Assembly (NCBI GenBank): GCA_030065585.1
Contig: JASJED010000074.1
Span: 1-38,617 of the forward strand
Origin: Desulfobacterales bacterium
GTDB lineage: Bacteria > Desulfobacterota > Desulfobacteria > Desulfobacterales > UBA5852
Direction: 5' to 3'
Length of the DNA: 38,617 nucleotides
Under the pieces are notes generated by a model, which did not search any database, was not told the origin of the DNA, and was given only the letters and a program-made list of their open reading frames with translations. Shown piece after piece: positions 1,895-34,530 of the stretch (the stretch's first letter is position 1; every line of letters begins with the position of its first letter). Both the position numbers and the translations under genes were made by a program.

Positions 1895-1950
1895 TTAGGT
1901 GTCAGGTGACAGGTGTCGGGTAATTCTGAAACCTGAAACCTGACACCTTA
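1895..1950. repeat. Imperfect inverted repeat built from the TGACACC/GGTGTCA motif
   Basis: taggtgtcaggtgacaggtgtcgggt ... aaacctgaaacctgacacctta; related direct copies at 4-35 and 2034-2060. Confidence 0.6.
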
Positions 1951-2064
1951 GTATGTAATAAACAGGGAGCCCTTGCAGCGGTGTCAGTGTTCAGCTGTCA
2001 GTAAATGGTTCGACTTCGGGGCCATGGCCGCCTCATCCCTGACACCCGAAACCTGACATTTTAT

Positions 2065-2200
2065 GCGCGACGGTTTCGTAATAAATCCGAGATCAAGGCT
2101 TGCGAAGCCCGAGGAATGAGGCGTACATATCGTACGCCGCAGTGACGAGGGGTGAAGCGTAACGCCGATATCGGGCTTATTACAAAACCGTTTTAGCGAC
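2065..2200 (-). repeat. Palindromic intergenic repeat family, copy 1
   Basis: acggtttcgtaataa ... ttattacaaaaccgt terminal inverted repeat; internal GGCGTAC-ATATC-GTACGCC hairpin; same family as copies at 14357, 31307 and 34408 (reverse orientation relative to the last two). Confidence 0.85.
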
Positions 2201-14326: not shown

Positions 14327-14356
14327 ATACGATGAACTCGCTACAAGTTATCTTAC

Positions 14357-14481
14357 AGACGGTTTTGTAAACACTTCGAGAGACGGCGTGAGATGCCCGG
14401 GGAATGAAGCGTATTTAAAGTACGCTGAACTGGACGAGGGCTGAAGCGTAACGCCGCTATCGGACTGTTTACGAGACCGTC
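14357..14481 (-). repeat. Palindromic intergenic repeat family, copy 2
   Basis: gacggttttgtaaaca ... tgtttacgagaccgtc terminal inverted repeat; internal agcgta...tacgct; lies between convergent genes. Confidence 0.8.
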
Positions 14482-31306: not shown

Positions 31307-31430
31307 GACGGTTTCGTAAAACGTCCGATATCGGCGTTACGCTTCATGCCTCGTCATTGCAGCGTACCGAAAGTACGCTCTATTCCTCAGCATTCGCAAG
31401 CCTTGATCTCAAACCTTTTACGAAGCCGTC
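31307..31430 (+). repeat. Palindromic intergenic repeat family, copy 3
   Basis: gacggtttcgtaaaa ... ttttacgaagccgtc; internal AGCGTAC-CGAAA-GTACGCT; lies between divergent genes. Confidence 0.85.
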
Positions 31431-31656
31431 TGAAATATGACATTTTACGAGTCCATCTTTTCTGTATTCAGGATAATCCGCTGGGCCGATGCTGCGTTAA
31501 CCCGGCGCCATTTCTAATACGAAAGCCCTTGGTCTGTAAAGCACGGCACGGTGGTGAGGCGTCCCGCGGGCCTGCAACGCCATTGGACTTGCATAAAATT
31601 GCCAGTTGACATTTGATAGTGACGTTTTTGATCGAACCGACACGCTAAGGAGCGCC

Positions 31657-34337: not shown

Positions 34338-34375
34338 TGCTGCGGCCTTGACGGCTGTTGCTTAGAACCGATTGC

Positions 34376-34402
34376 AAGGCCCTGCCCCAGGCAGGGCCTT
34401 TT
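34376..34402 (+). terminator. Rho-independent terminator after dsrC
   Basis: AAGGCCCTGCC-CCA-GGCAGGGCCTTTT, 11-bp stem and T-run. Confidence 0.92.
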
Positions 34403-34407
34403 CATTT

Positions 34408-34530
34408 GACGGATTCGCAAAAAGCCCGAGAGCGGCGTTATGCTTCAGCCCTCGTCATTGCGGCGTACTTATGTACGCCTCATTCCTCGGGCTTCGCAAG
34501 CCTTGCGCTCGAACTTTTTGCGTATCCGTC
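34408..34530 (+). repeat. Palindromic intergenic repeat family, copy 4
   Basis: gacggattcgcaaaaa ... tttttgcgtatccgtc; internal GGCGTAC-TTAT-GTACGCC. Confidence 0.85.

Follow-up and report, generated by a model that had tools for sequence, protein, structure and literature searches.

Four palindromic sequences lie in both orientations between the genes of a 38,617-nucleotide stretch of DNA from a Desulfobacterales bacterium (the whole stretch analysed, called the window here), and the question they raise is what kind of repeat they are and how they came to be there. A sequence-only reading of the window had described them as 123-125 bp units and suggested a MITE- or BIME-like non-autonomous element or a structured RNA or DNA repeat. 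The analysis described here makes it very likely that the four palindromes are copies of a MITE family of Desulfobacterales, moved by an IS1182-like transposase. The MITE part of the earlier suggestion held up: the element has inverted ends, 6-bp duplications and no coding capacity in any of its size variants, one orthologous site is occupied in some genomes and empty in others, and there is an insertion sequence (IS) with matching ends and duplications.

The four copies were found within 1-2 bp of where they had been placed, and their matched stretches are ~78-88% identical. All are intergenic, and the neighbouring genes bear out the tandem, convergent and divergent contexts described earlier. 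Copy 1 lies upstream of a gene at ~2220, copy 2 is convergent with a PilZ gene and a TPR gene on either side, copy 3 is divergent with SDR and Fe-ADH genes on either side, and copy 4 is in tandem between dsrC and a UPF0047 (yjbQ-type) gene. The window's open reading frame list, read by eye, agrees that it holds no transposase. None of the four window copies has a perfect 6-bp duplication. Short repeated motifs of the type TCAGGTTTCAGGTGTCAGG adjoin copy 1 (window positions 1900-2060) and also lie to the right of a copy elsewhere (L069); they may represent a second dispersed repeat. Intergenic DNA near some copies (L070, L109, L117) also contains a separate recurring palindrome of the type GTCCCGGATCAGGTCCGGGA.

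Positions of the repeat copies and adjoining features in the window, with other elements that have the same ends
Feature	Position	Strand	Description
Copy 1	2069-2192	-	124-bp inner palindrome; tail and target duplication not recognisable
Copy 2	14331-14481	-	full 151-bp form; inner palindrome 14358-14481
Copy 2 tail and outer end	14331-14357		target duplication not recognisable (2/6)
Copy 3	31307-31457	+	full 151-bp form; inner palindrome 31307-31430
Copy 3 tail and outer end	31431-31457		4/6 flank bases match
Copy 4	34408-34530	+	inner palindrome, decayed tail
Terminator-like hairpin and T-run after dsrC	34368-34407	+	immediately left of copy 4; recognised by sequence
Other elements with the same ends	L109, L165, L171, L387, L388, L391-L393		many with perfect 6-bp duplications

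The sequence-only reading had allowed for a family of just these four copies, and the search of the genome and its relatives that it proposed returned many more. The assembly that holds the window (4.2 Mb, 361 contigs, 86% complete) has at least 41 BLAST matches (best 40 of 119 candidates scored), with E-values of the other copies down to 1e-44. With up to 3 mismatches allowed, a 25-bp core pattern matched 78 times in the 4.2-Mb genome, compared with 0 matches for a reversed-pattern control. A profile search found ~100 distinct copies (102 with a score above 60; 108 at E<=1e-6); its input was the BLAST and core matches and the loci around stray end motifs, and these copy numbers are lower bounds. 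The 151-bp element is present in 21 of 58 relative genomes at E<=1e-5, the window's own genome counted, with identities down to ~75% across the full length, and two genomes hold hundreds of candidates. Among the matches listed, 80 of 80 named records with the pattern are Desulfobacterales, Desulfobacteraceae or 'Deltaproteobacteria', and among these records the element is confined to one taxonomic group. Several contigs start or end within a copy, and because of this the element may break metagenome assemblies.

No description of the repeat was found by sequence and keyword searches of openly licensed papers, and Rfam 15 gave no match above the gathering score in the window. Within Rfam and the searchable papers, no sign was found that the repeat is one already catalogued, as the sequence-only reading had thought it might be. 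It is well supported as an abundant and order-wide MITE family that is ordinary in kind, and new as far as Rfam and those papers go.

The ends of the element are 19-bp terminal inverted repeats, GACGGTCTCGTAAAAAGTC and, inverted, GATGGACTCGTAAAAAGTC. The 123-125 bp unit described earlier is real as an inner palindrome, but many copies are longer and run to a second terminus: to the right of the palindrome is a conserved 27-bp tail, TGAAACATGACTTTTTACGAGTCCATC, with the target duplication next to it. The 151-bp form is the inner palindrome plus the ~27 bp up to this second terminus, and the element's right end has two tandem copies of the end motif. The 124-bp unit was rejected as the whole element because both conservation and duplication run to the second terminus. 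Copies come in forms of 124 bp, 151 bp and ~169 bp, the last with a small inserted hairpin, CCACCCGAGGCGGATAAAT.

When the outer terminus is taken as the end, the six bases to the left of GACGG recur to the right of CCATC. The identity between the flanks is highest, at 0.54, when the width is exactly 6 (other widths, 0.25-0.35; unrelated copies at width 6, 0.30). Perfect 6-bp duplications flank 16 of 69 copies in the window's own genome, compared with 11 of 4692 cross-copy control comparisons, and 30 of 69 copies in other genera. The check for target-site duplications that had been proposed thus found them, exactly 6 bp long, at many copies; the target consensus is AWNNWT both in the own genome and in other genera. 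Some short copies are flanked by a duplication of their own right at the 124-bp ends (AATCAA at L010, TTTATT at L008), and for this reason the inner right-hand end motif can apparently also act as a terminus.

Several copies (L008, L039, L063 and the one beside window positions 34368-34407) sit in the T-run of an intrinsic-terminator-like hairpin, which AWNNWT would allow. In the own genome (G000), the left end of most copies is on or near a gene end, with a stop codon within ~12 bp (for example L002, L009, L012, L020 and L097), and a TGA is often formed across the junction, with T on one side and GA on the other. Of 75 copies in this genome, 63 have a gene closer to their left end than to their right, with gene calls from a crude codon model. 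Oriented targeting was considered and rejected, as there is no such bias in other genera (27:27) or in the sister species (12:11).

The site of copy 4, between dsrC and yjbQ, is occupied in the own genome and in its sister G004, and unoccupied in G001 and G005. The latter two have the same dsrC hairpin and T-run without the element, and in them the leader of the next gene comes immediately after the dsrC terminator. Only ~8 copies are plausibly common to the own genome and G004, and most insertions therefore appear younger than the split between the two, both assemblies being incomplete.

The sequence-only reading had also proposed looking for a transposase with matching termini, and an IS1182-like element of this description is present in the genome and in relatives. 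Two stray end motifs in the own genome directly precede a transposase gene. One of the two belongs to a 1.9-kb IS on contig C285 whose reading frame is complete; its 582-aa product has a DUF772 and a DDE_Tnp_1_6 domain, and the DDE_Tnp_1_6 model (PF13751) scores 63.2 bits, above its cut-off of 25.1. The best NCBIfam family for the transposase is IS1182, at 135.7 bits, below the NF033551 cut-off of 270, so the partner is a distant relative of IS1182 and not a canonical member; the ISNCY_1 model scores 51.1 bits, far below its cut-off of 325. The partner has the same combination of DUF772 and DDE_Tnp_1_6 in its transposase as IS1182-like insertion sequences, and its ends and 6-bp duplication match those of the MITE. 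It may belong to the ISDol1 group of ISNCY.

Of 243 genomes of the order, 22 have homologues of the transposase. Those with both ends located are elements of ~1.9 kb with similar termini, and for roughly half of the homologues the script located no end pair. Three have perfect 6-bp duplications (AAACTT at L332, AACCTT at L335 and AATTTT at L139) and others do not; some have CATGACTTTTTACG in common with the right end of the MITE. The likeness between MITE and IS is limited to the terminal ~19-22 bp, with nothing common beyond the ends. An origin of the MITE as an internal deletion of the IS was rejected since only the ends match, and because only the ends are common, the MITE is most likely mobilised in trans by a larger IS. 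On this comparison of ends, the IS is a likely partner of the MITE family. Further non-autonomous elements, 63-324 bp long, that have the same ends but unrelated interiors were seen in G000, G024, G042 and G050, and because they use these ends the 151-bp element probably represents just one of several MITE families that such insertion sequences serve.

Three points count against the link between MITE and IS. In the copy-rich genomes G024, G042 and G008, no transposase was detected with the protein query or with PF13751; the supplier there may have been lost or may be missing from the assembly. The IS in the own genome has no recognisable duplication (TTGGTT/AACTTT), and the window copies have no perfect one.

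In the proposed mechanism, an IS1182-like transposase would recognise the ends of the gene-less 151-bp element and insert it into AT-rich 6-bp targets (AWNNWT), which would become duplicated. Targets of this kind are found at stop codons and in the T-runs of terminators, and many copies lie in such places. We infer that the transposase is supplied by this IS or by a close, perhaps extinct, relative, and the 124-bp form would arise when the inner right-hand end motif is used as the terminus.

A different origin would be a repeat of the REP/BIME/REPIN type mobilised by a RAYT transposase, and like those repeats the element is palindromic, intergenic and dispersed in both orientations. REPs measure 20-40 bp and have a GTAG or CGTC tag on one side (PMC3733652), and the element contains no such tagged hairpin. 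Unlike REP, BIME and REPIN repeats, it is a far longer unit of 151 bp, has other ends in the form of 19-bp terminal inverted repeats, makes a true target duplication of exactly 6 bp, and has its ends in common with a DDE-type IS. The REP/BIME/RAYT assignment was rejected on the ends and the duplication, the BIME-like label is withdrawn with it, and a RAYT-driven origin seems extremely improbable, with the inspection for RAYTs covering the window's open reading frame list by eye.

The MITE folds into a single long hairpin. The strand opposite to copy 3 gives the best fold, and among 183 copies drawn from many genera it is the more stable strand in 174 (means of about -64 and -53 kcal/mol). Covariation was evaluated in an alignment of 57 copies from the own genome, as the all-genera consensus fold was poor owing to alignment gaps. 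Changes on both sides were found in 21 of 34 pairs, although the copies are related and the cells are not independent events. There were 97 double-change cells, compared with 13.5 in shuffles, and none of 500 shuffles reached 97; sliding the pair partners destroys the signal. With pairs that have G-U as the norm excluded, the stable strand has 87 G-U and 13 A-C, and 22 pairs have more G-U while 0 have more A-C; the pairs were chosen on the stable strand, which favours G-U at borderline positions and not at Watson-Crick-majority pairs. The internal loop GAGGA/GACGA is not Watson-Crick complementary and is 97-98% conserved, above the paired columns; on paper it could form tandem G-A pairs. Of the earlier suggestion of a structured RNA or DNA repeat, the structure is supported by folding and covariation, and no Rfam family matches.

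Copies that occupy one and the same site in two species were also compared. In six such copy pairs, 24 base pairs had both sides altered and still paired, 19 one-side changes went through G-U, and a broken pair was involved in 26 changes, mostly in two decaying copies. Copy 4 and its same-site copy, for which both flanks align, differ by 4 double changes, 3 G-U steps and 0 A-C; for some of the other same-site pairs only one flank aligns and orthology is less certain. These results show that the single strand in its folded form is important or is kept up, with an RNA role, a single-stranded DNA role or arm-to-arm copying as candidate causes. A need for the full-length hairpin in transposition was rejected, as L109, L387 and L388, which have the same ends and perfect duplications, fold weakly beyond the terminal repeats.

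Arm-to-arm copying would mean that, after a MITE origin, template switching between the arms during replication keeps them complementary mechanically, without selection. This is consistent with the same-site copies, where changes are often clean swaps from one Watson-Crick pair to another, several per arm, and with the lack of context dependence. However, if the arms copied each other, G-U should not be favoured over A-C on one strand, against the 22-to-0 split seen here, and the mismatched internal loop is conserved and not corrected, which leaves template switching possible but doubtful.

Alternatively, copies of the MITE could be retained because a hairpin of one strand, as RNA or single-stranded DNA, serves the host, for example at mRNA ends or in mRNA stability, as proposed for ERIC-like elements. 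The compensatory changes and their absence from shuffles, the G-U excess, the consistently more stable strand, the conserved loop that is never complementary and the double changes at the same sites in two species all point this way. But the pairing and the G-U excess are independent of the transcribed strand of the neighbouring genes, pair types found in a single copy only (G-U 10, A-C 8) show no strand preference, the surroundings of copy 3 showed no promoter-like site, and copies are not widely common between species. Selection on the hairpin in an mRNA context was rejected because neighbouring gene orientation has no effect, and a host role is on the whole unlikely. The same low expectation applies to the claim that copies are retained as one-strand-specific folded hairpins, which would draw on the compensatory, G-U-tolerant evolution at shared sites and the conserved purine internal loop. 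If it were true, a single transposon family would be the source of ~100 structured RNA (or single-stranded DNA) elements scattered through each genome, across Desulfobacterales.

With the MITE reading, a very abundant dispersed repeat of a large order of sulfate reducers is now bounded and explained, with copies at gene ends that include one beside dsrC, a gene of dissimilatory sulfur metabolism. Now that the exact ends, the 6-bp duplication and a likely partner are known, mobilisation in trans can be tested directly. An unusual property, and the part of this MITE family worth further study, is the strand-specific covariation; it raises the question of whether MITE hairpins are kept for function, by arm-to-arm copying or for transposition, and the same-site copies in sister species make the causes of hairpin upkeep testable.

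Bacterial MITEs with an identified IS partner include, as a class, RUP, NEMIS/Correia, Nezha and ERIC (PMC3733652). Like them, the Desulfobacterales element is short and non-coding, has terminal inverted repeats and a target duplication, is mostly intergenic and is able to fold as an RNA hairpin. It differs from them in its sequence, host order, end sequence, partner and duplication length, and in a right end made of two tandem copies of the end motif. The ERIC or RU-1 sequence of enterobacteria is 127 bp long (PMC2759123) and resembles the element in size and as a dispersed intergenic mobile sequence; the hosts are unrelated, and the resemblance is one of how the two work, with no membership claimed. 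What the Desulfobacterales element adds to the comparison with these MITEs is a measured, strand-specific covariation.
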